From Aliiroseovarius crassostreae (GTDB lineage Bacteria > Pseudomonadota > Alphaproteobacteria > Rhodobacterales > Rhodobacteraceae), in the NCBI RefSeq assembly GCF_001307765.1, contig NZ_LKBA01000019.1:558001-622000 (forward strand): DNA of 64,000 nt, in the 5' to 3' direction. Below the pieces are notes generated by a model. That model made no database searches and was not told the origin of the DNA. It worked only from the letters and a program-made list of their open reading frames with translations. Below are positions 8,466 through 57,828 of this stretch, piece by piece. The position numbers and the translations under genes are program-made. Every line of letters begins with the position of its first letter. Position 1 is the stretch's first letter.

Positions 8466-8504
8466 AACCTCTCGGTGAATGCTGGCATTCACCTGCCGGT
8501 CAGC
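8466..8504 (+). repeat. palindromic mini-insert P1 in IS3 OrfB
   Basis: A 39-nt in-frame insert that adds NLSVNAGIHLPVS to the transposase tail. It begins with CCTCTCGG at 8468 and contains a perfect 9-bp stem, GGTGAATGC / GCATTCACC, with a 2-nt loop, followed by CCTGCCGGTCAG. The flanking blocks CCTCTCGG and CCTGCCGG are shared with copies P2, P3 and P4, while the inner stem sequence differs but still pairs. Confidence 0.75.
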
Positions 8505-8752
8505 GGGAAACATTACAACACCAAACGACCCCATAGTGCATTGGGCTACCGCCCACCTGCGCCAGAGGCCATCGTACCGATGGACCAAAGGCCGATCATG
8601 CACTAACTTGCAATATGGACCACTCAAGTGGGGCTGCTCAATCAGAACGAGGGAAGTTTCGGGTGGCAGGTCGGCGTCACTCCGCGATCGGGCACCAAAC
8701 GCCGCAACAGGCGTTCAACAATATGACTTGGAAAATGGCCGCATAGGGTCAA

Positions 8753-8866
8753 TAAAGCGTTTCGACTTTAACCTGAGACAGGGAAAAATCGAAACGCTAC
8801 AAGAGATATCAATGTTGTGGACGTTCGGAATAAATATGTGTGTCAAATTTATCCCGAAACGCTTTA
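8753..8866. repeat. MITE-like double-hairpin repeat, copy 1
   Basis: A 114-bp repeat with ends TAAAGCGTTTCG and CGAAACGCTTTA, present two more times (27240-27354 and 35402-35516). Each copy folds into two consecutive stem-loops built from GCGTTTCG/CGAAACGC arms. This copy is the most diverged. It lies between the IS3 tail and the end of cheD. The first and last TA dinucleotides could be a target duplication. Confidence 0.85.
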
Positions 8867-8917
8867 GTGAAACTATCCGGTTATTGGGACAAAAGCCAAT
8901 ATCGCTTCTTATGTATT

Positions 8918-9448
8918 TCAGAACAATTCAACATCATTGCGTTTTACAATACCAAGTTTGATCAGCGGCAGATCCCTTGCGACCAGTTTTTGGCGGACAA
9001 AGCCGGTTCCTGGCCAAAACTCAAGACGACGCGCTTTGTTCCCTCCCAGGTCCCCCCCAAAATACGGGATATTCTCTTTTTTGAGAAAGTCGATGACAAA
9101 TTCACCATTTCTCACGCCGGCATCTGAAAGCCCTGCTATCATTTGGGCGCCTCCAAAAACTTTTGCCTTCATGTTATTTCTGCGCGCGCCCATGTGAAGC
9201 ATACCGTTTATCAGTAGTTCCATTCCATTCACACCGTGCCCCAAAACCTCTTCTGCGTTCTGAGTATCATCACAAAAAAGCACATGATTCATGCCGCCAA
9301 TTTCTAATGCTTTATCCCACAGACAGACAGATACACATGACCCCAACAACGTTGAAATAACCGCTTCAGGCCCCTTTTCTATAGCGAAATCACCTTGCGA
9401 TATGTAGGTTCGCACAACTTTATTGTGTGGCGGTGAGAACGGCTTCAT
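8918..9448 (-). CDS. cheD: chemoreceptor glutamine deamidase CheD
   Basis: CheD deamidates specific glutamines of chemoreceptors and often helps adaptation together with CheB. The 176-residue product shows the catalytic cysteine in LLGSCVSVCLWD (around residue 38), the histidine in GGMNHVLF and the conserved KVFGGAQM segment. It is the last gene of the minus-strand mcp-cheB-cheD group. Its start lies two bases from the cheB stop, implying translational coupling. The CDS ends about 50 bp from MITE-like repeat copy 1. Confidence 0.95.
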   Translation of the reverse strand: MKPFSPPHNKVVRTYISQGDFAIEKGPEAVISTLLGSCVSVCLWDKALEIGGMNHVLFCDDTQNAEEVLGHGVNGMELLINGMLHMGARRNNMKAKVFGGAQMIAGLSDAGVRNGEFVIDFLKKENIPYFGGDLGGNKARRLEFWPGTGFVRQKLVARDLPLIKLGIVKRNDVELF

Positions 9449-9449
9449 T

Positions 9450-10529
9450 TCAATTCGTCCTCTTCAAGCTGGAACACATATCAAGAATGGCGTTAGGGAG
9501 CTGAACGAGAGGTAAAACAACGTCGACACCTCCTTTTTCGATCGCAACCCTTGGCATTCCGAAAACTACAGAGCTTTTTTCATCCTGAGCAAGGCAAGTC
9601 GCCCCTTGGGCCTTTAACTGGGCCATGCCTTCCGCGCCGTCAGTCCCCATACCAGTCAAAATGACCCCGACCACCCGATTTGCCATAGCTTGGGCAGACA
9701 GCATCATTTCATCAACCGAAGGGCGGTGCCCCGTACGTTTAGGAGCTTTGAGAAGGTGAATTTTCGGATCCTGAGGATTAACCAAAACCAAATGCGTTTC
9801 GCCTCCTGGTGCTATCAAGATCTCTCCTGGAAGTGGTCGGTCTCCTTCTTTTGCCAAACGAACTTTTGGTTTTGCAATTCTGTCTAGCCGATTGGCAAAT
9901 TTGACTAAGAACTGTGCTGGCATATGTTGGGTAATCAAAATGGGAGGACAGTTCACTGGCATTTTTTCAACCAGGAACTCCAACGCCTCCACTCCTCCCG
10001 TAGATGCCCCAATTAGAACAGTTTTTCCATTCCAGTCACTAAACCCCTGTTGCGATGTCAGGTTTTTTCTTATCGCGCGCCCAACAGGGTCTATGCGTGC
10101 TTGCGCTGCGGCGTGGATCGTTTGCGGAAGGCTCTCAAGTGAACTTTGCCCGGCACCGGGACCAGGTTTCAATATGCATTCAAAAGCACCAAGTGATAAT
10201 GCTGTGATAGCGGCTTCACTGCCTTCAGCAGTCAATGATGAGAACATAACAACCGGCATAGGCTTTGCGCGCATCAATCTACGCAAGAACTCCAACCCGC
10301 TCATCCCCGGCATTTCAACGTCAAGCGTCATTACATCCGGAGATTTGGTTTTCACCAATTCCCGAGCTTCTAACGCTGACGCGGCTTCCCCCACGACCAC
10401 TAGACAAGGGTCTTTTTGAATCCCAAAGCGTATCAGGCTTCGCATAGTCGGACTATCATCCACAATAAGAACCCGTGTAGGCGGTTTCTTTGCGGCAACA
10501 TTCCATGATCCTTTAAGATCAAAACTCAT
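9450..10529 (-). CDS. cheB: chemotaxis protein-glutamate methylesterase CheB
   Basis: CheB removes methyl groups from receptors when phosphorylated by CheA. The N-terminal receiver domain has VLIVDDSPTMRSLI, the phospho-acceptor in TLDVEMPGMSGLEFL and a lysine in the CILKPG segment. The C-terminal esterase domain has the catalytic serine in IGASTGGVEALE, the histidine in ITQHMPAQFL and the aspartate in LTGMGTDGAEGM. The ATG at 10529 has GAGG six bases upstream and is preferred over one 12 nt further up. The start overlaps the end of the mcp gene by 11 nt. Confidence 0.95.
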   Translation of the reverse strand: MSFDLKGSWNVAAKKPPTRVLIVDDSPTMRSLIRFGIQKDPCLVVVGEAASALEARELVKTKSPDVMTLDVEMPGMSGLEFLRRLMRAKPMPVVMFSSLTAEGSEAAITALSLGAFECILKPGPGAGQSSLESLPQTIHAAAQARIDPVGRAIRKNLTSQQGFSDWNGKTVLIGASTGGVEALEFLVEKMPVNCPPILITQHMPAQFLVKFANRLDRIAKPKVRLAKEGDRPLPGEILIAPGGETHLVLVNPQDPKIHLLKAPKRTGHRPSVDEMMLSAQAMANRVVGVILTGMGTDGAEGMAQLKAQGATCLAQDEKSSVVFGMPRVAIEKGGVDVVLPLVQLPNAILDMCSSLKRTN

Positions 10530-13131
10530 CCCAATCCTCATAGGTATGGTCTGCTTCGATCTGCTGTGCGATTGCTACGGAGCTTTTGGGGGCCGCGAGG
10601 GGGTGGGGATGGAGGGCGCTCTCTTCGGTTTGTAAAACGGGTTCGACAAAAACATCACTTTCAATGATTTGTGCCGCAGGTCGTTCCGCCTGATCAGTTT
10701 TGAAACGAGACATGGTGCTGGTCAGCGTTTGGGCCTCACATGTCAAAGAATGGCTGGCTGCGGTTGTTTGTTCAAACATCGCCGCATTTTGCTGCGTCAC
10801 CTGATCCAACTGGTTTACCGCCTCATTGATTTCCGCAAGACCTGCGCTCTGCTCTCGTGCAGATATGGCAATTTCACCAACATTTCGGCTGATTTCACTA
10901 ACACTTTCCACAATCCCGACCAGGGCTTCTCCCGCTTGGTCCACCAGATGCACGCCACGTTTCACCTGGCTGCCTGAGGCGGAAATCAGTTCATTGATTT
11001 CTCGTGCAGCGTCAGAAGAACGTTGCGCCAAGGCCCGAACTTCCGAGGCGACCACCGCAAAGCCCCGCCCCGCCTCACCGGCTCGTGCCGCTTCGACCCC
11101 GGCATTCAACGCCAACAGGTTGGTCTGGAACGCAATATCGTCAATCACGCCGGTAATTTTCGAGATTTGCAAGGACGAGGTTTCAATCTCCCCCATGGCC
11201 TCCACGGCCTCCCGCACAACCTCGCCAGAAACTTCTGCATTTTTCCGCGCACTTTCAACCACTTCACTGGCATGCGCGGCACCATCGGCTGCGGAACGCA
11301 CCGATGATGTCAGCTCATCCAGCGCCGTGGCTGTCTCCTCCAGCGTGGCCGCCTGCCTTTCGGTTCTCTGCGACAGGTCATCCGCCGCATTCGAAATCTC
11401 GGACGCTTCCCCCTGGATCATCTCAGCATTCTCAACCACCCCACGCATCGCTGTAAGAAGGTTATCAACAGCCCGGTTGAAATCATGACGAAGCTGTTCG
11501 TAATTCTCGGAGAACGCATCCGTGATCTCGGTGGTCAGATCCCCATCCGACAAACGGCTCAACCCATCGCGCAGCGCGTCAACAACGCGGTTCTGCGCCG
11601 CCTCCATCTCGGCACGACGAACCTCCGATGCCTCTATCTCCCGCCGCGTCTCCGTAACATCCGTCGCTATCAAAACGATGCGCATCAACCGACCATCAAG
11701 ATCCCGGACAGGAACAAACCCACCGTCGATAACCAATTGCGATCCATCACTTCCTGTCAAAACAAAGTGGTCATATAGAGATGCGCCCTGAGAAACCTGT
11801 TTAATCACCTGTTGAAATTTCTTACTATCTCCGTCAGAGCCGGAATAAAGCTCCTCAAACGCCAAGCCAGGCAGACTTTCAATCTCTCTTCCCAGAAGAT
11901 CAGAAAAGTGAGCGTTGCAGCTCATGATCTCTCCATCCAAACTGAGATCAACTTTAATCTGGTTTTCGTCAATCGCCTTCATCAACGCATGGTTTACAAA
12001 ACTGTCCGATATATCCGACCATTCTGCCACATACCCGATGAGAATTTCTTCCGCATCACGGACATCATTGATCATCACGCGATAGCGGCTTTCACCAACG
12101 ACAAGATCAACCATACAAGGGAGATTTTCAGCGGCTGCAATTCTGTCCAGAACGGTCGGATCTGTTGCTGCCTGCAGAAACGTTTCCAGGCTTTCCCCTT
12201 CGACACCGCCCATTGGGAACCCCTTAATACAACTCAGAAATTCCTCTCTTTTTTCGGCAAAAAGCGCCTCCATGGCTGGGTTGATCTCTTGAATGCTCAA
12301 GGTGTCATCCATCATCATGAGATTGGTAGAGACATCCCGGAACGCAGTACTTCGGAACTGATTTTGCTTTTCAAGTTCAGCACCCGTAGCAAGTTCTTCC
12401 GCAAAGTCACACAACGCTCCGGCCAAATTCCCCATCTCATCACCATGGGCAGCAGCTTTGATTTCCACATCATACTGCCCTTTGGAAATTTTGCGAACAG
12501 CCGACCCAATTTGTTTGAGCGGCCCGACGACAACCTTCTGAACTCCAAACATGATCAGAATAAGCGCTACAAGAAAAACCCCCGCCGAAATCGCAGTTGT
12601 ACGCACTTGTTCAACGCGCACAAGTTCTCGGGTTTTCTTTGCATTCCAAGCGAACGCCAGAACTCCATAGAACTTTTTCCCATCCTCAGAATGTATCGGG
12701 TAAGCATAGTAAAGGCCGTCATTCGCCTCTTGCGAGCGTTGCGTTTGCACTGCCTCCGCAACCAGACTTTCCAAAATGGGCATGTCATTCAGCTCTGGTC
12801 CCATCTGAGCCAGAACACGGCCATTCTTTGCGACAGCAATGACTGTAGGGGAATAAGGATCTTCGGGATCAACAACTGTCATCAGCCGGTTCTGTACCCC
12901 GTTTGCACTCATCACCTGGAATGCCCCCAGCAAACTCTGTCCCAGCAAACGGGTGATTTCCTGGTCTTTCGCCGATGTAAGTTTATCAACGACCTCGTCA
13001 CTCCCCTTCAAAGAAAGAAAAACCATAGACAGAGCTGCGACGCCTATGGATGCAACTATCGTCGCTGTCAGTTTGACAAACACGGAGTTCAGTTTCTTGG
13101 GTGAAAATTTTCCATGAGCATCGGTGGTCAT
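10519..13131 (-). CDS. methyl-accepting chemotaxis protein with PAS domains and CheR/CheB-docking tail
   Basis: A transmembrane chemoreceptor. Counting from the ATG at 13131 (AAGGA about 12 nt upstream), residues 21-41 form TM1, followed by a periplasmic sensor of about 140 residues and TM2 near residues 180-205. A HAMP domain, two PAS-like segments, a second HAMP-like region and a full MA signalling domain follow, with the hairpin-tip signature AFQTNLLALNAGVEAARAGE. The protein ends in DWDEF, which resembles the C-terminal pentapeptide that tethers CheR and CheB to high-abundance receptors. Ligand unknown. First gene of an mcp-cheB-cheD unit. Confidence 0.93.
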   Translation of the reverse strand: MTTDAHGKFSPKKLNSVFVKLTATIVASIGVAALSMVFLSLKGSDEVVDKLTSAKDQEITRLLGQSLLGAFQVMSANGVQNRLMTVVDPEDPYSPTVIAVAKNGRVLAQMGPELNDMPILESLVAEAVQTQRSQEANDGLYYAYPIHSEDGKKFYGVLAFAWNAKKTRELVRVEQVRTTAISAGVFLVALILIMFGVQKVVVGPLKQIGSAVRKISKGQYDVEIKAAAHGDEMGNLAGALCDFAEELATGAELEKQNQFRSTAFRDVSTNLMMMDDTLSIQEINPAMEALFAEKREEFLSCIKGFPMGGVEGESLETFLQAATDPTVLDRIAAAENLPCMVDLVVGESRYRVMINDVRDAEEILIGYVAEWSDISDSFVNHALMKAIDENQIKVDLSLDGEIMSCNAHFSDLLGREIESLPGLAFEELYSGSDGDSKKFQQVIKQVSQGASLYDHFVLTGSDGSQLVIDGGFVPVRDLDGRLMRIVLIATDVTETRREIEASEVRRAEMEAAQNRVVDALRDGLSRLSDGDLTTEITDAFSENYEQLRHDFNRAVDNLLTAMRGVVENAEMIQGEASEISNAADDLSQRTERQAATLEETATALDELTSSVRSAADGAAHASEVVESARKNAEVSGEVVREAVEAMGEIETSSLQISKITGVIDDIAFQTNLLALNAGVEAARAGEAGRGFAVVASEVRALAQRSSDAAREINELISASGSQVKRGVHLVDQAGEALVGIVESVSEISRNVGEIAISAREQSAGLAEINEAVNQLDQVTQQNAAMFEQTTAASHSLTCEAQTLTSTMSRFKTDQAERPAAQIIESDVFVEPVLQTEESALHPHPLAAPKSSVAIAQQIEADHTYEDWDEF

Positions 13132-13256
13132 ATTTGGTCCCATTCCTTTTGCCGTGTAACCTCGTGAACTGGTCTTCGCCAGACTAAGGCGCGGAGTGTT
13201 GAAATGGGGTTAAGATCAATCGCATCCGTCCGGTAAAGGAGCGCACCGGATTAGAT

Positions 13257-14035
13257 TGGACTTGTCCCGGTTTAGTTCCGGACCAAGAGCTCTCATGTTA
13301 AGCGGCTTTCCGTTCGAAAGTCACGGGGCTTTTGTATCCAAGGGCTGAGTGCCGTCGGCGTGGGTTGTAAAAACCGTTGATGTACTGGAACAGCGCCAGT
13401 TCGTATTGCCGGCGAATGTACCAGGGTTGCGGCCAGGCCAGCTCGGCCCTCAGTGTTTTGAAGCAGGTCTCAAGGGCAGCGTTGTCATAGCAATTTCCCT
13501 TGCCGCCCATCGAGACCTTGAAGCCGCGCTGTTTCAGCGGCTTCTGGTCCTCATGCGAACAATATTGGCTGCCGCGGTCGGTGTGATGGATGCAGCCTTT
13601 CGGGGGGGCAGATTGATCGCCGTGAACGGTAGCCGATCGGTTACTCCAGGCAGGCCGCAGAGCTGGCGCTGGCTGAGTTTACCGTCGCACTGGTCGATGA
13701 ATGCGACCCTCACGTCTTTTGCCTCGCGAAAAGGCCGTGGCCTTTTTTAGCACGCCCCTCTCCTCCTTCAGGATGCGGTTCTCCCGTCGAAGCCGTTCAC
13801 TCTCCCGTGCCAGATCCTGATCGGGCCCGGAAACAACCGCTTCTTCGTCAAAGGATGTGATCCATTTGTTCAGCGTTGAAAGGCCCCCCCAAATCCGCAG
13901 AAACCTGTCGCCGCGTCAGGCCGCGCGTCAGCGCGATACGCACCGCATCCCGCTTGAACTCTTCACTGTGTCCGTTTGCCATAGTTCAAGGCAATATTGC
14001 TCTCAAAGGGCCGGAACTGAACTGGGACAAGTCCA
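13257..14035 (-). mobile_element. IS3-family element, internally deleted, copy A
   Basis: A 779-bp element with matching ends, TGGACTTGTCCCGGTTTAG at 13257 and its near-complement ending at 14035. On the minus strand it holds the OrfA start (ANGHSEEFKRDAVRIALTRG), the coiled-coil end, and then only the back half of OrfB (NCYDNAALETCFKTLRAELA ... RRRHSALGYKSPVTFERKAA, 13298-13510). The middle of OrfB with the first catalytic aspartate is gone. Copy B at 36042-36823 has the same deletion, so the truncated form itself must have been duplicated. Confidence 0.88.
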
Positions 14036-14203
14036 ACGAACCTCTGAACGTTGCGCATTCCCCGATGGCACCCGCCAAGCTGCAGTTTGCTCTGAATTGC
14101 AAACAGCGCAAGGCGATGGAAGCCAGGTAACGCAAAACGGCCAAGTCCGGCAAACCGATCGCGTGTTGAGAAATGAACCACAAGGACATCCCCCCGCGAT
14201 ACG

Positions 14204-14380
14204 GTCAAAGCCTTCTACCCCAGTGACTACGGTTTCAAGAAATTCGAGTGGGTCAAGAAGCCCACTCACATTCCCGAGCCACGCAAGCAGACACTCTATG
14301 GCATTGAGGTCGTGGACATGCACGGGAACCCCGCGCCGTTCATTGCGCATCCAAAACCGTTTAAGGATTCGCTGAACTGA
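14204..14380 (+). pseudogene. C-terminal gene fragment, unrecognised family
   Basis: A 58-codon open stretch with coding-like third-position GC ends in TGA at 14378-14380. It encodes VKAFYPSDYGFKKFEWVKKP and KQTLYGIEVVDMHGNPAPFI, then HPKPFKDSLN. A plausible start region (ATGAACCACAAGGACATC at 14174) is one frame off. It follows IS3 copy A and looks like the tail of a gene truncated by rearrangement. I do not recognise the family. The rest of 14036-14546 shows no other supportable gene. Confidence 0.35.
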
Positions 14381-14546
14381 CGGGCACGAAGCCAGGCTTG
14401 GGTGGCGCTGCTATCAGTCAACGGAGCGCGGTATCAGCAGCCCATCGCGCCAAAAAAAGACCGCCACATAGCGATCAAGTTCACACAGACGTTTCCGCGC
14501 CGCAAAAATGCCCCGGGACAAACCGGAGAAACATTTTCCGAGCCGC

Positions 14547-15068
14547 TTAGCCAACCGGTTTCAGGCTTTTGGCGAAATACGCCGCATTGAGCTGATAATG
14601 ATGGGCCGAGGCCAGAAGTGACTGCTTTGCCGCCTCATCAATCTCTCTCACGATCTTGCCGGGGCTGCCCAGCACCATGGACCCGTCCGGGATCTCTTTG
14701 CCTTCGGTCACCAGCGCCCCTGCCCCGATCAGGCATCCTTTGCCGATTTTTGCGCCATTCATCACTGTCGCGTTCATGCCGATCAGGCTGCCATCGCCAA
14801 TTGTGCAGCCATGCAAAAGCACCTTATGGCCAACGGTGACATTGGCACCAATGGTCAGCGGAAACCCAAGATCGGTGTGAAATACGCAGTTTTCCTGCAC
14901 ATTGGTGCCGTCGCCCACGTCGATCAGCTCATTGTCGCCACGCAGGGTGCAGCCAAACCAGACCGACGCCTTGGCGCCGATCCGAACCCGACCGATAAGA
15001 TTGGCATCCGGGGCCACCCAGGCCGCCGGATCAATCTCGGGTGTTACGCCATCCAATGCATAGATCAT
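14547..15068 (-). CDS. gamma carbonic anhydrase family protein
   Basis: A 173-residue left-handed beta-helix protein made of hexapeptide repeats ([43 protein letters not shown]). The metal-binding histidines fit CVFHTD and GHKVLLHG. Members hydrate CO2 or act as trimeric scaffold or acyltransferase-like proteins; activity of this member is not proven. The start overlaps the gmk stop by 4 nt (ATGA), so the two are translationally coupled. Confidence 0.9.
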
Positions 15069-15718
15069 GTTTCATTCTCCTCAAATTCCGATTGCAGCCC
15101 GCGCACGAAGTTCAGAAGTCCGGGCTGCTGCGCCCGGCGCAGGCGTTCCGCGGACACGATGGTTTTCAACCGGTCAAACGTCGCCTCCAGATCATCATTG
15201 ACCAGAACGTAATCATACCCGTCCCAGTGGCTGATCTCGTCCCAGCTTTTCTGCATCCTTTTCTGGATCACCTCGTCACTGTCCTGTCCCCGGCTGACCA
15301 GACGACGCCGCAGTTCCGTGATCGAGGGCGGCAGCACAAAAATCGACAGCACATGGTCACGCAGGGCCGAGTTGGAAATCTGCTGGGCGCCTTGCCAGTC
15401 CACGTCAAACAGGACATCACGACCGCTTTCGATCGCGTCGCGCACCGGACCTGCTGGTGACCCGTAAAAATTGCCGAACACATGGGCGTGTTCCAGCATC
15501 TCACCCTCTGTCACCATACCCTTGAAGGTGGGCTCGTCCACGAAATGGTAATGCACGCCGTTCTCCTCGCCCTCACGCGGGGCGCGGGTCGTGGCTGACA
15601 CTGAAAAGCGCAAACTGTCATCCCATTGCATCAACTGTCTGGCTAGGGTGGATTTCCCGGCCCCTGAGGGCGAGGACAGGATGATCAGCAAACCGCGACG
15701 GTTTTCGAAATTGGCCAT
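15065..15718 (-). CDS. gmk: guanylate kinase
   Basis: Phosphorylates GMP to GDP in purine metabolism. The 217-residue enzyme has the P-loop [15 protein letters not shown] at the N-terminus, the GMP-binding STRAPREGE-like segment (here [20 protein letters not shown]) and the lid region [14 protein letters not shown]. The size is typical. It lies between the YicC gene (5-bp gap) and the gamma carbonic anhydrase gene on the same strand; a yicC-gmk arrangement is common in bacteria. Confidence 0.97.
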
Positions 15719-15723
15719 GAGAC

Positions 15724-16617: not shown

Positions 16618-16795
16618 GGGGCATCCTGTTTGGTTAACCATTTGATAAGATTTATCACCACATTTTAACAGAATATGCCATATTAAGAATGTGGTGAGCA
16701 TTACCTCGATTTCAGTTAGCAGACGGCCAGCACCGGAACAAGCTGCCAGAAGGCTCTGAGCGTCACTCATCCAGACCGGCCTGTGGGACAGAGAC

Positions 16796-17693: not shown

Positions 17694-17702
17694 CGTGAGG
17701 CC

Positions 17703-26628: not shown

Positions 26629-27258
26629 ATGACGGCGCCCCCCCATCCTTGTGTTGTTCTTCTGGCAGCAGGCCAGTCGCAGCGGATGGGGGGGCAGCCC
26701 CCAATCGACAAGCTTTTGCTGCCCCTCCCACGGGCAGGCTTGCAAAAGACCCTCCTAGAAGATCGGATCGACGCGGTGCGCGGCAGCGGGTTGGACCTGG
26801 TTCTGATCCTGCCTCCGGAACAGAGTTTTCCCGGTCGCTGGAACATTGCCCGCACATGCGGGATCACCCCGGTCACCAGCCCCCACGCACATCTTGGTAT
26901 CGGAGAGAGCCTCTCTACGGCCATGGCACATATTGATGGCCGGTATGACAGTGTTCTGATTGTTCTTGCGGACATGCCGAAAATTACATCAGGCAACATG
27001 CAAACCGTCGCACATGCGGGGCAATCGGACGAAATCTGGCGTGGTGCTTCGTGTCAGGACAGCTCGAGCCAAAACACGCCGGGCCATCCTGTCCGTCTTC
27101 CCCGGCGTCTGTTTCCCCGGATTGCACAGCTATCCGGTGACCATGGGGCACAGAAGATACTGGCCCGGGAAAAGGTCCATCTGATCCCCCTGCCCGGCGA
27201 CGCCGCTATTCTGGATCTCGATACCGAGGAAGATTGGATTAAAGCGTTTCGGTTTTAA
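26629..27258 (+). CDS. MobA-like nucleotidyltransferase (C-terminus altered by a repeat)
   Basis: A 209-residue NTP_transf_3 protein with the LLAAGQSQRMGGQ nucleotide-binding loop (LAAGxSxRMG), a downstream lysine for the pyrophosphate site (PPIDKLLLPLP) and the metal-binding VLADMPKIT. Relatives transfer GMP or CMP to molybdopterin or activate other cofactors or sugars. It starts 11 bp after livM and may be cotranscribed. The last residues, IKAFRF and the stop, are encoded by MITE-like repeat copy 2, so the original C-terminus has been replaced. Whether it is still functional is unclear. Confidence 0.8.
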   Translation: MTAPPHPCVVLLAAGQSQRMGGQPPIDKLLLPLPRAGLQKTLLEDRIDAVRGSGLDLVLILPPEQSFPGRWNIARTCGITPVTSPHAHLGIGESLSTAMAHIDGRYDSVLIVLADMPKITSGNMQTVAHAGQSDEIWRGASCQDSSSQNTPGHPVRLPRRLFPRIAQLSGDHGAQKILAREKVHLIPLPGDAAILDLDTEEDWIKAFRF

Positions 27259-27354
27259 CCTGATACAGGGGGAAACCGAAACGCGGTAAGAGATCTCAAT
27301 GTCGTGGGTGTTTCGGAATAAACATGTGTCTCCAGTTAATCTCGAAACGCTTTA
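27240..27354. repeat. MITE-like double-hairpin repeat, copy 2
   Basis: A 115-bp copy, TAAAGCGTTTCGG to CGAAACGCTTTA. It begins inside the last codons of the nucleotidyltransferase gene and abuts the left inverted repeat of the IS1182 element. Close to copy 3 over its whole length; differences are scattered substitutions. Confidence 0.88.
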
Positions 27355-27434
27355 GCAGGCTGCTGAAATAGTCCTGCCTCGACAGCGGTTTGAGAACATG
27401 ATTCACCATCCGGGATGGTTACGGCGGGGGGGGT

Positions 27435-35230: not shown

Positions 35231-35401
35231 TATCGGGGATGACTTAAGGTAAAGATTAACTCTAAATTTTTTTTAAACTCGACAGCATTCTGCCCCGGGA
35301 AAACCCGTTTTCCGGGCGTCAATTTCCGGTTTCCCCGAACATTGAAATCAATTCAGAAACAACTTTTTTCGGCAAATTCGATTCGAGAGCCAACTATATT
35401 T

Positions 35402-35516
35402 TAAAGCGTTTCGATTTTAACCTGACACAGGGCAAAACCGAAACGCGGCAAGAGATATCAATGTCGTGGGCGTTTCGGAATAAATATGTGTCTCAAGTTT
35501 ATCCCAAAACGCTTTA
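35402..35516. repeat. MITE-like double-hairpin repeat, copy 3
   Basis: A 115-bp copy, TAAAGCGTTTCGATTTTAAC to AAAACGCTTTA. Hairpin 1 spans GCGTTTCG-ATTTT ... AAAAC-CGAAACGC. Hairpin 2 spans GCGTTTCGGAATAAA ... TTTATCCCAAAACGC. An extra solitary CGAAACGCTTTA lies 16 bp further on (35534-35545). It sits just before an IS5 remnant. Confidence 0.88.
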
Positions 35517-35578
35517 GGGTCCTGACCTTAGAGTCGAAACGCTTTACTCGGGCATCGCTTCCAAAATGGAGCGGTGAC

Positions 35579-49473: not shown

Positions 49474-49548
49474 GTTTTACAACCAGAGCAAATACCCTAC
49501 CCCCCCCTGCCTTCCCGGCCCTGAACCCCTTGCGCAGAACACGGCCAC

Positions 49549-49558: not shown

Positions 49559-49723
49559 AGGCGAGTGGAAACTGATCGCGATACGGCCGGGGGCTGCTCT
49601 TCGCGGGAAATTGCTGTTGTCGTAAGCCATTTTTTAACTCCCACTGTTTTACATCTGTTTCAACTGGAACAGAAAAGGGCGAATTGTGACACAGATTTGC
49701 ACCCATGCTGCGGGGGCCCCGAC

Positions 49724-50005: not shown

Positions 50006-50006
50006 C

Positions 50007-50369: not shown

Positions 50370-50374
50370 GGCAC

Positions 50375-52603
50375 ATGTCGGATCCGATGGCTGAAATCAA
50401 GGCTTCCTTTTTCATCGAATGTGAAGAACTCCTGGAAGGTCTGCAGGATGGTTTGCAGGAAATGGATGACGGGCAGTCAGACAGCGAGACGGTCAATGTT
50501 GTTTTCCGTGCAGTTCATTCAATCAAAGGCGGCGCCGGCGCCTTTGGATTGGACAACTTGGTAGAATTCGCCCACCATTTCGAAACCGCATTGGACGAGG
50601 TTCGCACAGGCAAACTCATCGCCGACCAGAATGTGCTCAAGCTCTTTTTCCAATGCAGCGATCTTTTGGCTGACCTTATCCGTGAAGCGCGCGATGGCGA
50701 CCCCCACGAGGTAAGTCGAACCGCACCCGCAGTCGCCAATCTTTCCAAACTGGTGGGAGACACAGCTTCGCAACAGGAAGAAGACGTTGATTTCCAGCCC
50801 ATGGCGCTGTCCCTGGATCTGTCTTCGTTTGAAACAGCTGACCCAGCGTCTCCCACACCCGGCTATCAAATAACTTTCAACCCAGAAAATGAGCTTTACG
50901 CACTTGGAAATGAACCCCTTTTCCTGCTCCGGGCCCTTCGCGATCTGGGCGATATTGAGGTATCGTGTGAGAGTGACGGCCTCCCAAGCCTTGAAGATCT
51001 CGATCCCGAAACAGGGCACATGACCTGGAAGATCAAACTGGAAACGTCAGAGGCCGAAACAGCCGTCACCGAAGTTTTTGAGTTCGTTGAAGGCATCTGC
51101 ATCCTGGAAGTCTCAACCCTGGATGCCCCCCTCTCATCTCTCTGCAATGACCTGCCGCCATTTGAAAACCTGACCACTGGTGGCAACCCGCCATTTCCAG
51201 ACCTCCCTCCACTGCCCGCAGCACTTTCAACATCCGAAAGTTTCTCAATGCCCCAGGAGCCCCCAGAGGAGCAAAAGTCCGCCACAGACGGCGACCAGAC
51301 TGCACCGGTTTCTCCTCCAACAGCTGAACCTAAGCGCCCCTCCCCGGTTACCCTTCCGAAGGGCCCCACAAAGCCCGCGTCTGGCAGCACAACCCCGCGG
51401 GCAACGGTGCGGGTCGATCTCGAACGCATTGACCGGTTGGTCAATCTGGTTGGAGAAATTGTGATCAATCAAGCAATGCTGACACAAAGTGTCGAAGAAG
51501 CTGGGCTGCCCCCAAATTCAACAGTGCGCACTGGTCTCGAAGAGTTCCTGCAATTGACCCGCGACATCCAGGAAAGCGTGATGATGATTAGGGCGCAGCC
51601 CGTCAAATCTCTCTTTCAACGCATGGGGCGTATTGTCCGTGAAGCATCAGCCGCGATTGGGAAGGATGTCCGCCTCAACACGGATGGTGAGAATACAGAG
51701 GTTGATAAGACGGTCATCGAGCGGCTGGCTGATCCCTTGACGCACATGATCCGAAATGCAGTCGATCATGGTCTGGAAGAGAACAGGGACCGCGAAGCTC
51801 GTGGGAAACCCTCTCAAGGACAAGTTTCACTGTCTGCGACCCATCGGTCTGGCCGTGTGGTCATAGAAGTCTCTGATGACGGGGCCGGCATCAACCGCGA
51901 AAAGGTTCATAAACTCGCGGTAGAGAAAGGCTTGGTTCCCGCAGATCTGCAGCTCACGGAAAGCGAAATTGACAACCTTCTGTTTTTACCAGGGTTTTCG
52001 ACGGCCTCCGAGGTTTCCAACCTTTCGGGGCGCGGTGTCGGAATGGACGTTGTCCGCAGTGCCATCCAGGCACTGGGGGGGAGGATCTCGATTTCCTCCG
52101 AACAAGGTAAAGGAACAACCTTCTCCATTTCGCTCCCCCTAACTCTTGCAGTTTTGGACGGCATGATCGTCACCGTGGCGAAGGAAACCCTGGTTGTCCC
52201 TCTAAATTCCATCTTGGAAACACTCACTCTTACGGGTCCTGATCTGAAAGAGTTTGGCCCGGAAACACAAGTGGTGAACATCCGAAACACATTCGTCCCG
52301 CTACTCGATCTGGGTGCAGAACTTGGTTATCGCGAGCCATTGGACAGCTACACGGGCACCGTAGCATTGCTCATCACACAAGAGGATGGCTCGCGTGCAG
52401 CCCTAGTGGTCGATGCAATTGACGATCAGCGTCAGGTTGTCATCAAGGGGCTGCAAGACAGCTATGGCCGTGTTCCAGGAATTGCGGCCGCAACGATCCT
52501 CGGCGACGGCAAAATTGCACTGATCCTCGACCCGGTCGACCTTGTTTCCAAAGCCAGTGGACGTACGCGCCCAGCCTCCACCCATGCCACAATCGCAGGA
52601 TGA
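50375..52603 (+). CDS. cheA: chemotaxis histidine kinase CheA
   Basis: A 742-residue kinase. The Hpt domain has phospho-His48 (FRAVHSIKGGAGAFG). A central region carries a proline-rich linker (about 275-340). The dimerisation domain (LERIDRLVNLVGEIVINQAM) is followed by the ATPase domain with N box (LTHMIRNAVDHGLEE), G1 (VSDDGAGINREKV) and G2 (GRGVGMDVVRSA), then a C-terminal CheW-like domain that couples it to receptors. Spacing to neighbours is 5 bp or less. Confidence 0.96.
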   Translation: MSDPMAEIKASFFIECEELLEGLQDGLQEMDDGQSDSETVNVVFRAVHSIKGGAGAFGLDNLVEFAHHFETALDEVRTGKLIADQNVLKLFFQCSDLLADLIREARDGDPHEVSRTAPAVANLSKLVGDTASQQEEDVDFQPMALSLDLSSFETADPASPTPGYQITFNPENELYALGNEPLFLLRALRDLGDIEVSCESDGLPSLEDLDPETGHMTWKIKLETSEAETAVTEVFEFVEGICILEVSTLDAPLSSLCNDLPPFENLTTGGNPPFPDLPPLPAALSTSESFSMPQEPPEEQKSATDGDQTAPVSPPTAEPKRPSPVTLPKGPTKPASGSTTPRATVRVDLERIDRLVNLVGEIVINQAMLTQSVEEAGLPPNSTVRTGLEEFLQLTRDIQESVMMIRAQPVKSLFQRMGRIVREASAAIGKDVRLNTDGENTEVDKTVIERLADPLTHMIRNAVDHGLEENRDREARGKPSQGQVSLSATHRSGRVVIEVSDDGAGINREKVHKLAVEKGLVPADLQLTESEIDNLLFLPGFSTASEVSNLSGRGVGMDVVRSAIQALGGRISISSEQGKGTTFSISLPLTLAVLDGMIVTVAKETLVVPLNSILETLTLTGPDLKEFGPETQVVNIRNTFVPLLDLGAELGYREPLDSYTGTVALLITQEDGSRAALVVDAIDDQRQVVIKGLQDSYGRVPGIAAATILGDGKIALILDPVDLVSKASGRTRPASTHATIAG

Positions 52604-52607
52604 CCCC

Positions 52608-53087
52608 ATGACTGAAGCTACAAAAAACCTCGACACCCATAGCGATGGCAGCGAAATTGAGCTCCTATCATTTCTGGTCGGCGGACAAGACTATTCAGTC
52701 GATATCATGAGTGTTCGCGAAATTCGCGGCGGCGCACAGGCAACCTCCCTACCCCATGCCCCAAACTATGTGAAAGGGGTAATCAATCTTCGAGGGACAG
52801 TGCTGCCTATTGTGGATTTGGCAAAGCGACTTGGCATGCATGAAGACAAAAACACCGAGCGCAATGTTATTATTGTCGTAGCAATCGGTGAGCGCACCGT
52901 TGGCTTGGTTGTCGATGCCGTATCAGACATCCTGGCAATTTCCGAACAGGACATGCAGCCCCCCCCTGAGATGCGTGCAGACCAGAAGCGCAACTTTGTT
53001 TCCGCGCTTACAATTGTGGAAGATCGCATGATCCGCATCCTTGATCTCAATGCGGTGCTTCCAGAAACCAACGAGGAAGCCGCGTGA
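52608..53087 (+). CDS. cheW: chemotaxis coupling protein CheW
   Basis: A 159-residue CheW domain (ELLSFLVGGQDYSVDIMSVR, PNYVKGVINLRGTVLPIVDL, GLVVDAVSDIL). It links CheA to the receptor array. The ATG at 52608 is 4 bp after the cheA stop. The stop overlaps the GTG start of cheR. Confidence 0.95.
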   Translation: MTEATKNLDTHSDGSEIELLSFLVGGQDYSVDIMSVREIRGGAQATSLPHAPNYVKGVINLRGTVLPIVDLAKRLGMHEDKNTERNVIIVVAIGERTVGLVVDAVSDILAISEQDMQPPPEMRADQKRNFVSALTIVEDRMIRILDLNAVLPETNEEAA

Positions 53088-53983
53088 CTGTTGAGCATCA
53101 TCATAGCACACAGAATCTCTCGGGGCCGACACTGGACGAGCATTCCTTTCAACGCATCGTCAAATTTGCTTACGAGACCGCCGGGTTATCAATTTCCTCA
53201 AGCAAGACGGCAATGGTCCGTACAAGATTGGCCCGACGCCTCAGGGATCTCAACTTCAATAGTTTTTGTGACTACTGCGACTACTTCTTAAGCTCTGGAG
53301 GAATGCAAGAAAGATCTGAACTAATCTCAGCACTCACCACCAACGTGTCGTACTTTTTCCGCGAAAAACATCACTTTGATATCCTTTCTCATGAGGTGAT
53401 CCCCTCCCTCATACAATCCGATTGTGCGCAAGAACCCATTCGATTTTGGTCGGCCGGCTGTTCGAACGGACAGGAGCCGCTTTCTTTGGCAATCACACTT
53501 CGAGAAAGTGGATTAGCTAACCGCGCCCAAAATCTCAAAATTTTGGCCACTGATATTGACCCCCGCGTCATCCGCTTTGCCCAGTCATCAGAGTATTCAG
53601 AAAGAATGATGGAAGGCGTGCCACATCATCTGGCCGAAAAATACTTTTCCCGGGTCAGTCAAAACAAGAACCACGATTTGGTTTGGAAAAGCAAAAGTAC
53701 AATTTTGGACCTGATTTCTTATCGCCAACTAAACCTCCTAGAACGCTGGCCCATGAAAGGAAAGTTTGACGTTATATTTTGCCGAAACGTCGTGATCTAT
53801 TTCGATCAGAAAACTCAGGATATCCTGTGGGAAAAATTCGCCAACGCTCTTCGGCCGGGCGGGTGGCTATTTCTTGGGCACTCAGAACGGATCTCGGACA
53901 GCCACCAAAACAAATTCAGAACATTTGGCACCACAGCATATCGTTTGCAAAACGAAATGCATCCTTCAAAAAGGCAGGATTAA
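53084..53983 (+). CDS. cheR: chemotaxis protein methyltransferase CheR
   Basis: Methylates receptor glutamates using S-adenosylmethionine. The 299-residue protein has an N-terminal helical domain (RLARRLRDLNFNSFCDY), the receptor-recognition segment LTTNVSYFFREKHHF, the SAM-binding WSAGCSNGQEPLSLA, LATDIDPRVI and FCRNVVIYFD. Start is GTG, overlapping the cheW stop. Its substrate receptor is plausibly the mcp at 10519-13131, which carries a DWDEF docking tail. Confidence 0.95.
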   Translation: MTVEHHHSTQNLSGPTLDEHSFQRIVKFAYETAGLSISSSKTAMVRTRLARRLRDLNFNSFCDYCDYFLSSGGMQERSELISALTTNVSYFFREKHHFDILSHEVIPSLIQSDCAQEPIRFWSAGCSNGQEPLSLAITLRESGLANRAQNLKILATDIDPRVIRFAQSSEYSERMMEGVPHHLAEKYFSRVSQNKNHDLVWKSKSTILDLISYRQLNLLERWPMKGKFDVIFCRNVVIYFDQKTQDILWEKFANALRPGGWLFLGHSERISDSHQNKFRTFGTTAYRLQNEMHPSKRQD

Positions 53984-54370
53984 ATGGCACTTAGAGATCA
54001 ACTGCGAATAATTGTTGTGGATGACATGTCCACAAGTCGCGGTATCATTACCCAAGCTCTGGAAGCATTTGGTGTGAGACAGATTGAGACTGCAAGCGAC
54101 GGTCAGGATGCTTTGCAGAAAATTTCTACATGGCCGGTCCATCTGGTCATCTCAGACATGAACATGCCAGGGATGAACGGTTTGCAATTGCTTCATGCTC
54201 TTCGCTCGACACCCCAGACAAGGGGGGTAGGTTTCTTGCTGATTACAGGCAAGGCAGATCGGGAAATAATTGAGTATGGCAAAAAACTCGGCATGAACAA
54301 TTTCGTAAAAAAGCCTTTCCAGCTAGATCAGCTTCGCGGCGCAATTGAAGCAATTGTTGGCAGGCTGTGA
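53984..54370 (+). CDS. cheY: chemotaxis response regulator CheY (second copy)
   Basis: A 128-residue receiver domain: IIVVDDMSTSRGI, phospho-acceptor in LVISDMNMPGMNG, Thr in LLITGKAD and KKPF lysine. It starts directly after the cheR stop (TAA ATG). With two CheY proteins, one probably drives the motor and the other acts as a sink, as in other alphaproteobacteria; which one is not clear from sequence. Confidence 0.93.
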   Translation: MALRDQLRIIVVDDMSTSRGIITQALEAFGVRQIETASDGQDALQKISTWPVHLVISDMNMPGMNGLQLLHALRSTPQTRGVGFLLITGKADREIIEYGKKLGMNNFVKKPFQLDQLRGAIEAIVGRL

Positions 54371-54381
54371 GGGGCTGAGCT

Positions 54382-54756
54382 ATGGGAATAGATACACCAC
54401 CTCATCACCCTAACAAGCTTGTAATACAAGAGACTTTGTCTGCAGCATCTACAGAACTCTGCACGCTGGCAGCCTTGAGCAAAGAAATTCAGTGGGCCAT
54501 CTCATCACTGTTGGAAAAAGCTCAGCACCCCGATCTTTTTGTCGAACTCCAGATATTACAAGATATTGATCGACTACAGCAAACCTTGGTTGATCTCGGG
54601 AACATGATGCGCGTTTTGAGTGCTAACTCCGCATTAGCTTCAATAGATAGGGAAACGTTGATGCAAACTGTTCAACTTGAGAGTTTAAAAGCTAGGCTAT
54701 TCGTCAGAGAAAACACTGTTTGTGAACAATCGGATGGCGAGGTAACTTGGTTATAA
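54382..54756 (+). CDS. small helical protein at the end of the che operon
   Basis: A 124-residue, mostly helical, acidic protein (LCTLAALSKEIQWAISSLLE, LQDIDRLQQTLVDLGNMMRV). No named domain recognised. The position 11 bp after cheY suggests a function in the pathway, for example a CheY-binding phosphatase or polar localisation factor. It lacks an obvious CheZ or CheX motif. IS3 sequence begins shortly after it. Confidence 0.7.
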   Translation: MGIDTPPHHPNKLVIQETLSAASTELCTLAALSKEIQWAISSLLEKAQHPDLFVELQILQDIDRLQQTLVDLGNMMRVLSANSALASIDRETLMQTVQLESLKARLFVRENTVCEQSDGEVTWL

Positions 54757-54823
54757 ACCGTTCGCCTCATTAATTAACCGTGAGCTGGACCTGTCGCGCT
54801 TTCGTGCCGCGCCAAGTGCTCGT

Positions 54824-55609
54824 TTAAGCCAGCTTCCGTTCGAATGCCACGGGGCTTTTCCAGCCCAGTGCTGAGTGACGGCGGCGCGGATTATAGAACC
54901 CGTTGATGCATTCAAAGATCGCCATCTCAGCCTGCCGTCGTGTTTCCCATGACCGTCGCCAGATCAGTTCGGCCTTGTTGGTTTTGAAGAACATCTCGAC
55001 GGCTGCATTGTCATAACAATTTCCTTTTCCGCTCATGGAGACTTTGAAGCCATGCTGGCGCAGGATTTTCTGATAGTCATGCGAACAGTATTGGCTGCCG
55101 CGATCGCTGTGGAAGATGCAGCCTTTCGGCGGAGTCCTGAATGCTACCGCCATCTTCAACGCCCGGATCGCCAAATCGCGCTTCATGCGATTGCTGACTG
55201 CCCAGCCGATCACACGTCGAGAATGCAGGCCCAGAACGACGGCCAGGTAAAGCCAACCCTCGCGGGTCCAGATATAGCTGATATCGCCCGCCCATTTCTG
55301 GTTGGGTCGCTCCGCTGTGAAGTCACGCTCCAGCAGGTTTGGCGCGATGTTGAACGTGTGATCGCTGTCTGTGGTCGCCTTGAACTTGCGTGTTCTCTCA
55401 ACGGTAATCCCGTTTTCGCGCATCAAGCGACCGACGCGCCGGTGCCCGACATCGACACCGACGTCCTTCAGTTCCTCGGTCATTCGCGGCCTGGCCGTCA
55501 CCGGGATCAGCCACAGGCCACGTTGCAGAACCAAAGCGGGCTGGTGTTCCGTCTCCGCACGCACTTCGTCACCACGCCAGAACGCTGATGATTGCTGCAG
55601 GCGTTCCAT
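54824..55609 (-). pseudogene. IS3-family (IS51-like) transposase OrfB without its OrfA
   Basis: The core matches IS3 OrfB: GVDVGHRRVGRLMRENGITV, NQKWAGDISYIWTREGWLYL (first D), IFHSDRGSQYCSH (second D), MSGKGNCYDNAAVEMFFKT (catalytic E) and PRRRHSALGWKSPVAFERKL. Around residues 30-43 the expected SYGRPRMTEEL is replaced by a longer stretch before RPRMTEEL, which may be another short insert. No OrfA is recognisable in 55610-55790. Possibly translatable, but as part of an incomplete element. Confidence 0.75.
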
Positions 55610-55858
55610 ATACCGAAGGGGCGCTTCTGTTGGGTCAACGGCTTCCAGGTGCCTCTGGTGGGTATGTGCATCAGACGCATTTGGTTGAAGCCCTTCGGCC
55701 CCATTCTCAAACTTTTGAAGATTTGGTTTTGGCCAAGGCCGGTGTTGCGTGAATGATGGCGCGATGCCTTAACACGTTGGCATATCAAGACCTTGCAAGC
55801 TGATAACCTGATTTCATCGCTGTCCATTTGGACGCATCTGGATATTGGAGTTATCAGC

Positions 55859-56020
55859 ATGAGCAACCCACAAACTGACACCCCTTGGATGACAACCGAG
55901 GTCGCTGCCACATACCTTTCGGTCTCGCCTGGCACCATGCACAATTGGCGTAGCAACGGCACTGGTCCTTCTTACAGAACCGTTGTCTCGTCGCAGACGT
56001 GGATTGCCGCCATGACGTAG
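55859..56020 (+). CDS. small MerR/excisionase-like HTH protein
   Basis: A 53-residue frame with a helix-turn-helix of the HTH_17 type (WMTTEVAATYLSVSPGTMHN, WRSNGTGPSYR). The normal continuation VxRRVVYRRxDLDAW is absent, and the frame runs VVSSQTWIAAMT to a stop, so the C-terminus may be frameshifted. A 9-bp inverted pair GCTGATAAC / GTTATCAGC (55800-55808 and 55850-55858) frames the upstream region and could be its own operator. Such genes are typical of integrated elements or plasmids. Confidence 0.5.
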   Translation: MSNPQTDTPWMTTEVAATYLSVSPGTMHNWRSNGTGPSYRTVVSSQTWIAAMT

Positions 56021-56178
56021 TGGGGCAGCGGCTCGAACTCGAAGCGAAGGCGCAGGAAGTCGAGAAAGACTTCCTCGAAACACGGAGTTTGAACTGGCTG
56101 TTTTTCCACGGGACTCACTTTCGGGGACAAAGGGCAGGCCAACACGGCGCAACCCAGAACCATTCGAAAGGTAATACC

Positions 56179-56343
56179 ATGAATGAAAAGCTTAAAGCGG
56201 CTATGAGAGCATTGCGGAACGCAGGTGCACGCGACGGCAGTGAGGTGCATTGGAAGGACGCTGACACGGATCAGATTCACACCTACCGGCTTGTGTTCAT
56301 CGAAGATGAAAACCAGCCCCAATGGGTCGAGGTGATCGCATGA
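56179..56343 (+). CDS. 54-residue small protein of unknown function
   Basis: ATG at 56179 with AAAGG eight bases upstream. The product is KLKAAMRALRNAGARDGSEV, then HWKDADTDQIHTYRLVFIED and a short tail, coherent and well biased in codons. It is a small soluble protein without a recognisable family. It lies between the HTH fragment and a convergent gene. Confidence 0.5.
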   Translation: MNEKLKAAMRALRNAGARDGSEVHWKDADTDQIHTYRLVFIEDENQPQWVEVIA

Positions 56344-56412
56344 CCTCCGAACCCAGCGAGACGCTGAATTCTCAAGCGGTCGGCTTTGAGTGAACCGACC
56401 GGAAACGCTGCT

Positions 56413-56790
56413 TCAGGCAGCAAGAAGGTAGTCAGAGAGCGGCTGCCCAGGGGCGCAGTCGATACGATACAGAAGGTCGGTGAGTGCCTCGGTCAGTAGG
56501 CAAATCTCTTCGACATAAGGATCGCTGGGATCCAGATCCGCAAAGTATGCCGCCTCGATACGATTTTCGTCGTGCACGTAGTATAGAGAAAGCAGCTTGT
56601 GCAGTTCGACGATGCCGCGCTGGAGACGGCGTGTCATCGCATTGGCGCTACGAATTTCATCCAGCAGGGATTGGGTGCGTTTCAACGCAAACTGTCCTGC
56701 CAGGACGAGCGATGCGCTCTGCAGCGCCTGATCGTGCTGGTAGGTAAAGTTCTGGACTTCGCGGAGCGGGTTCAGGGAAAAAATGCACAT
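56413..56790 (-). CDS. 125-residue helical protein of unknown function
   Basis: A helical cytoplasmic protein (FTYQHDQALQSASLVLAGQF, LLDEIRSANAMTRRLQRGIV, LYYVHDENRIEAAYFADLDP). Good coding bias; GAGGA precedes the start on the minus strand. I do not recognise a named domain. The region 56791-57118 upstream shows no supportable gene and probably contains its promoter. Confidence 0.65.
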   Translation of the reverse strand: MCIFSLNPLREVQNFTYQHDQALQSASLVLAGQFALKRTQSLLDEIRSANAMTRRLQRGIVELHKLLSLYYVHDENRIEAAYFADLDPSDPYVEEICLLTEALTDLLYRIDCAPGQPLSDYLLAA

Positions 56791-57120
56791 GGGAATCCTC
56801 CTGTGCTATGCCAACCAACCGAGCGTGACTGGCTTCAAGAGCGCCTTTCTTCTCCTTTCCGGCACTTGGTTTTGATGTGATCATGCTTTGGGGTTTTCGC
56901 GGGGTTCATCATGACGCCCCAGAAAACCGCAAACCTGATCATGTGAGCTTGATGTTTTCCACGCCTAAGAACAGAAGCGTAGAAAGGGGTAGTATGGCGC
57001 TTATTTGATGCGGTCTTTTTTACGATTTGACGCATCTGCCCCCAGTTGCCGAAATCTGTTTGGTTCGTGGAACCGATGAGCAAAAGATAAGAGAGGCAAT
57101 TTGGGGACAAAGTTCACACA

Positions 57121-57157
57121 AAAAAGCCCTCAAGTCATTGTGACTTAAGGGCTTTTT
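57121..57157. terminator. terminator after tRNA-Asn
   Basis: AAAAAGCCCT-C-AAGTCA, TTG loop, TGACTT-A-AGGGCTTTTT: a long stem with flanking A and T tracts, directly downstream of the minus-strand tRNA gene. It can act in both directions. Confidence 0.9.
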
Positions 57158-57158
57158 A

Positions 57159-57233
57159 TGGCTCCGGCGGTAGGGATCGAACCTACGACCAATTGATTAA
57201 CAGTCAACTGCTCTACCGCTGAGCTACGCCGGA
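57159..57233 (-). tRNA. tRNA-Asn (anticodon GTT)
   Basis: Reading the minus strand: acceptor stem TCCGGCG pairs with CGCCGGA, D-arm GCTC...GAGC, anticodon loop CTGTTAA with anticodon GTT, T-arm GTAGG-TTCGATC-CCTAC, discriminator G and encoded CCA. All four arms pair. Confidence 0.96.
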
Positions 57234-57299
57234 ACTGAGCCGGTGTATAGCTTTCGCCGTTTCCCGCTGCAAGAGGGGAAATTCACTTTATTTCGAAAA

Positions 57300-57450
57300 T
57301 TATTCAAGCCCGAGATTGAGTCCCGCTGGAGAAAGGGGAACCGGGATTTGGGTTATATTGTCAGTGGTTATCAGCTTGATTTCCGGGCCGATCACATCCG
57401 TGCGAACCAAGCCTAGCTTGGCGATAAGGGCCAGACGGATCCCGAGCCCC
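57300..57450 (-). pseudogene. possible C-terminal gene tail, unrecognised
   Basis: A 49-codon minus-strand stretch ending in TAA encodes LGIRLALIAKLGLVRTDVIG, then PEIKLITTDNITQIPVPLSP and AGLNLGLE. It has coding-like third-position bias and a stop just upstream of its first codon. It lies between tRNA-Asn and the IS3 remnant and is plausibly the end of a truncated gene. No family recognised. Confidence 0.25.
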
Positions 57451-57647
57451 CATTACGCGACGGGATCGTCAAAGGCAACCGCCTACACGGTACTCCCCGA
57501 TTGTTGGACAAGATTTGGCGTAAGTTAAGCTACTCTTTACTCCTGCTGATCGGGTTGGTTGTCGTCTTTTCTCAGCCAATAGACCACGGCCAGGGGTTTG
57601 CCGCCAAGGGCGGAATGAGGGCGCTTGCGGTTGTAGAACTTGATCCA

Positions 57648-57659
57648 TCTGCCGAGAGG
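57648..57659 (-). repeat. half palindromic insert P5 at a deletion junction
   Basis: Minus-strand CCTCTCGGCAGA is identical to the left arm of P2, P3 and P4. It replaces about 60 codons of the IS3 transposase between VRIS and WIKFYN. Only the left half of the element remains. Confidence 0.7.
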
Positions 57660-57785
57660 GGAGATGCGGACGCCGGATCGGCGCAGCTGGTCGGTCCAGA
57701 CAAAGGACGTGAACTGCGAACCCTGATCGGTGTTCATGATCTCTGGCGGGCCGAAGCGGGCGATAGCCTCCTTCAGTGCCTCGTA

Positions 57786-57828
57786 CCGTTGCCCGACAGG
57801 CGATTTGCTACGCAAATCTGCCGAGAGG
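57786..57828 (-). repeat. palindromic mini-insert P4 in IS3 transposase
   Basis: 43 nt on the minus strand, CCTCTCGGCAG ... CCTGTCGGGCAACGG, the same length as P3 and nearly identical outside the loop (GTA instead of CCT). The inner stem is ATTTGC/GCAAAT. It lies between the codons for AEFC and EALKEA and shifts the frame. Same orientation as the transposase. Confidence 0.9.

Follow-up and report, generated by a model that had tools for sequence, protein, structure and literature searches.

The stretch of DNA described here (hereafter the window) comprises 64,000 nt of the Aliiroseovarius crassostreae genome (contig NZ_LKBA01000019.1, positions 558,001 to 622,000) and holds palindromic inserts of about 40 nt, or hairpins, within the transposase genes of different insertion sequences (ISs). 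Four full copies are recognized: P1 (8467–8506, + strand), a TGA..TCA-subtype hairpin in an IS3-type transposase gene; P2 (28232–28273, + strand), a class A hairpin in an IS1182-type transposase gene (Pfam DUF772); P3 (38591–38634, + strand), a class A hairpin in an IS3-type transposase gene (Pfam rve); and P4 (57786–57829, − strand), a class A hairpin lying in gene-sense direction in an IS3-type transposase gene, a host assigned by homology. The original prediction, made from the sequence alone, had placed four copies at these positions, and both the sequence and a covariance model bear this out, with E values of 2.3e-5, 3.2e-12, 5.1e-10, and 1e-9 for P1 to P4, respectively. The model was built from 26 hand-copied class A and class B copies, and copies like P2, P3, and P4 were included in the building set, while P1 was not. 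The IS3 copy that holds P4 also carries P5 (57645–57660, − strand), previously regarded as a half copy. It does match a class A hairpin over the 5′ half; however, with an E value of only 1.8, it is a remnant rather than a copy of the family. Related IS3 copies become alignable precisely from its 3′ edge onward, which gives P5 the look of a remnant left by a deletion at this junction.

Compared with relatives of the host ISs, the net length of the insert is 40 nt for P2, 43 nt for P3 (a further copy of which is found at G000:C20:229341), and 43 or 44 nt for P4, depending on the alignment. P1 represents a net insert of 39 nt, and the transposase frame stays open with approximately 13 additional residues; its flanks align at 82% with positions 1931–2117 of another locus (L045), overlapping a fragment with a Pfam rve_3 match. 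When up to three mismatches are allowed, the left block CCTCTCGGCAGATTTGC matches the window three times against a shuffled mean of 0.17, and the right block three times against 0.53, a number equalled in 3 of 100 shuffles. An Rfam search of the window yielded the tRNA at 57162–57233 as the sole match at gathering level and none at the hairpin elements, and a known structured RNA family was rejected as their identity.

The inserts follow a common layout, in which CCCTCTC is succeeded by GG plus a segment S (usually with an A bulge), a variable stem (approximately 5–9 bp), a loop of roughly 3, the complementary arm, S′CC, and finally TGYCGGGCARYG. A further class of hairpins reads CTCTCAT-stem-ACTGYCGGGC. 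The stems differ and yet pair, which had been taken as a sign that the hairpin is maintained, and this is substantiated by the concerted changes of both arms: in the 26-copy alignment, 59 cells are changed on both sides, versus 1 on one side. In the same alignment, 96.6% of the 234 stem cells are paired (8 are unpaired), and just 35–46% pair when the structure is slid by 1–3 columns as a control. Only 2 among the 226 paired cells are G-U, and this near absence points to a DNA rather than an RNA hairpin. The RNA folding z-score reaches −2.95 for one class A copy, but only −1.30 for one class B copy. The elements also hold few stop codons, with a mean of 5.42 of the six frames open for 121 distinct elements versus 4.30 after shuffling (4.53 in the largest shuffle), a feature that may be due to composition only. 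On inspection, the CCCTCTC and CARYG ends are not mutual inverted repeats; ISs with such ends were not searched for.

The family foreseen from the window recurs throughout the genome and among its relatives. In the 3.72 Mb of this genome (27 contigs), the pattern CCTCTCGGN{4,34}CCTGYCGG finds 24 matches, against 0 for the reversed pattern, and a covariance scan, in which 150 of the 4847 first-look candidates were scored, finds at least 29 places at E ≤ 1, at least 26 of them at E ≤ 0.0014. Each of the 26 strong copies is placed within an IS, either through homology or by eye. The three weak places, as judged by eye, fall in a long ordinary frame (C5:141056), in an intergenic-looking region (C2:340880), and at an IS3 end (C20:31473). 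Among 295 genomes drawn from the family (one per genus), 60 contain the pattern with GCARYGG and none its reversed form; in one of these 60 (G228), the match is stemless by eye. Within the genus, the class A pattern occurs in 3 of 21 genomes.

A scan of a larger genome collection returned at least 117 stretches, and 78 among the 80 matches listed come from Rhodobacterales or unclassified Alphaproteobacteria by title. The two listed matches outside Alphaproteobacteria, from Amycolatopsis (L343) and Verrucomicrobium (L367), show no stem by eye, and each falls inside a long ordinary frame; both were discarded. Plasmid records are also hit by two element queries (73 and 109 records), mainly from Pseudosulfitobacter, Sulfitobacter, Leisingera, and Phaeobacter, together with four Klebsiella plasmid records matched by the class A query at a permissive E limit. 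Matches also occur in four viral contigs, in two of which the surrounding frame looks IS3-like by eye. The viral contigs L408 (~8881) and L411 (~1528) carry related hairpins with a similar right flank at the site, and L411 holds a serine-recombinase-like frame nearby, also by eye.

The hosts were assigned by comparing the flanks of 135 distinct copies with 16 fragments in three phmmer rounds, counting homology within 60 nt of the junction. Fifteen of these fragments have a Pfam transposase or integrase-core match, and one is marginal (IS1595, E 0.0012). Transposase homology at the insertion point is found for 102 of the 135 copies, and these 102 have 96 different upstream 12-mers. The Pfam families involved are rve, DDE_Tnp_1, DUF4096, DUF772, Transposase_mut, DDE_3, Mu-transpos_C_2, and DDE_Tnp_IS240, with IS1595 weakly represented. 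The proposal that the hairpin does not belong to any one IS is supported. Approximately 20 of the remaining 33 copies, P1 included, lie in what look by eye like transposase or IS helper genes. The other 13 either do not look so or resist assignment: eight are intergenic or lie at a gene edge (four in G128, inside a further repeat, and L040, L059, L137, and L154), three are unassigned, one lies at a contig end, and one is stemless. Three unassigned copies aside, no prophage or other kind of accessory gene was recognized as a host among the 135. Thus, the location described as restricted to ISs is strongly so, but the eight intergenic or gene-edge copies make it less than exclusive.

Orientation follows a different course from that predicted. 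Although the four window copies all run in the sense direction, the 102 classified copies divide into 60 sense and 42 antisense, and 12 copies from this genome that are distinguished by their flanks (some 10 sites) into 5 sense and 7 antisense, with P1 assigned by its open frame; a sense-only orientation is thus rejected. Translational start from the RTG at the 3′ end of the hairpin was likewise rejected, as phase and orientation vary. Several sense insertions (e.g., L121, L140, L155, and L038) directly precede what appear to be DDE catalytic Asp codons. Among copies outside transposase genes, the four hairpins of G128 (L108–L111) belong to one subtype and are each followed by a conserved TTTATTTWGCAARATGA-like repeat, an insertion into another repeat family, and L059, L137, and L154, which like L040 lie outside genes by eye, share similar GC-rich left flanks ending in a GGC^GATGCG-like site.

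Comparison with uninterrupted relatives—drawn from the fetched loci without screening for other hairpins, and with gaps of at least 20 counted as filled sites—yielded an element-free relative for 95 of the 135 copies. The alignment is ungapped within 15 nt on each side of the junction in 63 of these 95 cases. Among the 63, the base before the insertion point is C in 36, T in 16, and another in 11, and the base after it is G in 48, A in 12, and C in 3; at the following target positions, the second is A in 38, the third C or T in 55, the fourth G in 32, and the fifth A or G in 48. The element thus inserts precisely, with a target of about Y^GAYGR in either strand and without target-site duplication: no duplication was seen, 63 of the 95 being gap-free once one base is accounted for and 64 showing no net length difference. 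In most of the other 32, the relative departs by one or two bases close to the joint or right at it, which leaves the 5′ start of the insert uncertain by one base. Relative to the empty site, the net insert measures 41 nt in 42 of the 95 copies, 40 nt in 15, and 43 nt in 9, the remainder falling mostly within 37–45 nt. It is indivisible by three in 81 of the 95, including 70 of the 80 classified transposase hosts with an empty relative.

Despite these frameshifts, carrier ISs have multiplied with the hairpins inside, and hairpin insertion hence does not immobilise the IS. One such carrier, an IS3 element whose ends are TGGACCTGTCRCGGTTTGATG, holds four hairpins in G033, up to five in G095, and, by eye, at least eight in G002, in both orientations. 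In G033, six full copies of this carrier lie at different places on two contigs, each with the four hairpins, 98.6–100% identical to the first copy and without internal length differences among them. A full copy without hairpins was not found in that genome, the other matches (E ≤ 1e-20) being fragments of 318, 166, and 155 bp. The segments between the hairpins of these carriers are open. Counted by hand, the coding sequence outside the hairpins holds 15 differences, 4 of them at third codon positions, and 0 of the 8 that are common to at least two copies on each side occupy such a position; the numbers are small, and there is no sign of purifying selection. Such counts correspond to drift without selection, and the carriers have thus probably moved in trans. 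G095 holds four copies of the carrier, two at full length with up to five hairpins and two with part lost. Similarly, the P2 insert is present in all eight IS1182 copies of the A. crassostreae genome that cover the site (96–100% identical), and it is missing from a relative of 71% identity whose own frame is nevertheless broken. The suggestion that the hairpin parasitises or silences ISs agrees with the frameshifts, but not to the point of immobilisation, as the carriers multiplied. Two of the G095 IS3 copies (L224 and L225) also carry a different hairpin insert (AGAAAACAGTCC..GGACTGTTTTC) at an A-rich frameshift run of orfA.

Evidence of movement also comes from the hairpins themselves. In the A. 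crassostreae genome, a single 34-nt core, its C/A mismatch included, recurs in an IS5-type gene (antisense) and an IS3-type gene (sense). Four IS5-type copies in G282, with differing flanks, hold an identical hairpin at the same site, where G059 and G116 hold other hairpins. By eye, same-site copies that differ within one genome are changed on one arm or in the loop, whereas hairpin subtypes differ on both stem arms; pairing therefore seems to be kept in moving copies and lost in stranded ones. Hairpins at the same site are common to different genera in 15 of 27 same-site pairs, and the pattern as to re-insertion or inheritance is mixed.

The copies are probably a non-autonomous mobile DNA hairpin of approximately 37–45 nt that rides on ISs. 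The data show precise insertion, a target preference, family-wide recurrence, and concerted differences between arms, as well as an identical element in unrelated ISs of one genome and carriage by ISs that multiply. Under this model, the folded single strand would be the mobile or recognised form, as the few G-U cells suggest, and an enzyme acting in trans would insert it. Pairing would be kept in the moving lineage, with one-sided decay in stranded copies. The copies would lie mainly in ISs because genes of this kind can be dispensed with, occur in several copies, and move horizontally, thereby carrying the hairpin along; a true insertion preference might add to this. Insertion would usually shift the transposase frame and turn the IS into a trans-dependent carrier.

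Several results weigh against the mobile hairpin. Two of five covariation measures are weak: the 7 pairs changed on both sides were reached in 100 of 500 shuffles, and the 15 further pair types in 28 of 500. The conservation of the flanking blocks arises partly by construction, as the regular expression and the choice of rows fix them, and 31 of the 95 measurable copies deviate from the expected length relative to the empty relative by at least one base. Some same-site hairpins may have been inherited rather than re-inserted. A linked Y1/RAYT transposase, which had been suggested as something to look for, is not supported: in a comparison of 41 of the element-bearing genomes with 39 others without the searched patterns, Y1_Tnp (PF01797) was present in only 9 of the former versus 2 of the latter, and RVT_1 (PF00078) in 14 versus 13. 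Both Y1/RAYT and reverse transcriptase are consequently rejected as the general mobiliser for inadequate co-occurrence, and no mobiliser was found among the Y1 and RVT_1 candidates of the 41 carriers. Mobility is deduced from the empty sites and the identical core, no new insertion having been observed and no free form being known. The weak points of the mobile-hairpin interpretation are this lack of an observed insertion, the missing mobiliser, and the choice between targeting and hitchhiking.

Neutral hitchhiking, in which insertion is random and only IS-borne copies are amplified and carried between genomes, is unlikely. It draws on the multicopy nature of the carrier ISs, on the hairpins that different genera share at the same site, and on an orientation bias that is insignificant (60:42). 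Nevertheless, the sites are mostly distinct, as the upstream 12-mers indicate, with no prophage or other accessory gene identified (three copies being unassigned) and every strong copy of this genome lying in an IS. A further proposal, that a dedicated single-strand hairpin insertion machinery of Rhodobacterales homes the ~41-nt hairpin into conserved motifs of DDE transposase genes, is unlikely; were it true, the hairpin would be a transposon-silencing device or a hyperparasite that makes autonomous ISs trans-dependent carriers. Similarly unlikely is a targeted anti-transposon device, in which a host or element-borne system puts hairpins into transposase genes and thereby inactivates them. 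The prevalence of transposase hosts of many IS types, the accumulation of several hairpins per IS (the IS3 of G002 above all), the predominance of net lengths indivisible by three, and the sites just before presumed catalytic Asp codons all speak for such a device. However, copies also occur between genes, the carrier ISs still multiply, and a linked system was not found; moreover, the frameshift is set by the length of the element and not by selection, and the Asp coincidence could be due to chance, as it may reflect just the Y^GAY target.

Removal of the hairpin at the RNA level, or its bypass in translation, would leave the transposase functional and would account for the multiplied G033 carriers, all six with four hairpins and open segments between them, as well as for the stop-poor elements. 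Short frameshifting inserts in coding genes that are bypassed are known from the mitochondrial byp elements and T4 gene 60, which the hairpins resemble in being short frameshifting inserts in coding genes; unlike these, the hairpins occur in both orientations, and the joined product carries no sign of selection. With both orientations within one gene, 42 of 102 copies antisense, and third-position counts (small in number) that lack a selection signal, this explanation is disfavoured and very improbable.

Small repeats that target ISs have been described before. RUP, a miniature inverted-repeat transposable element (MITE) of the pneumococcus, is reported (PMC2229807) as a small non-autonomous repeat found in more than six IS families, where it inactivates transposase genes, and NEMIS is named with it for IS targeting by small repeats. 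The idea that the IS-restricted habit is new is therefore superseded. RUP is counted there among repeats of approximately 100–200 bp, with 9-bp terminal inverted repeats, a TA target, target duplication, and stops in all six frames, and IS630-Spn1 is its proposed helper (PMC2229807). The hairpin is alike in being a small non-autonomous repeat that breaks transposase genes in many IS families. Nevertheless, it measures 37–45 nt, targets Y^GAYGR without duplication, contains few stops, and has no known helper; its ends differ, and its covarying stem is not a feature shared with RUP. The habit is thus known, and the hairpin is different from a RUP-like MITE because size, ends, target duplication, stem, and helper are not shared.

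Other palindromic repeats show more partial similarities. The same source describes Rickettsia palindromic elements (RPEs) as inserts of 105–146 bp that lie in frame in conserved protein genes and also between genes (PMC2229807). Both are palindromic inserts in coding genes, P1 even being in frame; however, compared with RPEs as described there, the hairpin is about 41 nt long, mostly frameshifting, and hosted mainly by transposase genes. Repetitive extragenic palindromic (REP/REPIN) sequences are multicopy hairpins of 20–40 bp, some REPs being inside genes, and the CGTC REPs lack a dedicated transposase (PMC3733652). The hairpin is similarly multicopy and of comparable size and, like the CGTC REPs, without a dedicated transposase. 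Unlike the REP/RAYT systems covered by that report, its feet are CTCTC and TGYCGGGC, neither GTAG nor CGTC, it lies mainly inside ISs, and Y1 transposases are absent from 32 of the 41 carriers tested. No description of this hairpin family was found in the literature searched, most subscription journals being outside its reach.

The hairpin would add a size class to mobile DNA, of about 40 nt, with a covarying stem and without target duplication, whose numerous distinct sites lie in the transposase genes of ISs from unrelated families. The clean empty sites, the target motif, and the many species involved are material for finding the insertion enzyme, and constitute a natural system in which to ask whether ISs are restrained or exploited by small elements. 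The hairpins may also account for part of the broken transposase genes in Roseobacter-group genomes.

Two further features of the window lie outside the hairpin family. The tRNA gene at 57162–57233, encoded on the − strand, is close to the IS that carries P4 and P5. In addition, a MITE-like repeat of approximately 117 nt, with inverted ends TAAAGCGTTTCG...CGAAACGCTTTA, is present at 8752–8868, 27239–27355, and 35401–35517, in copies that are 62–100% alike.

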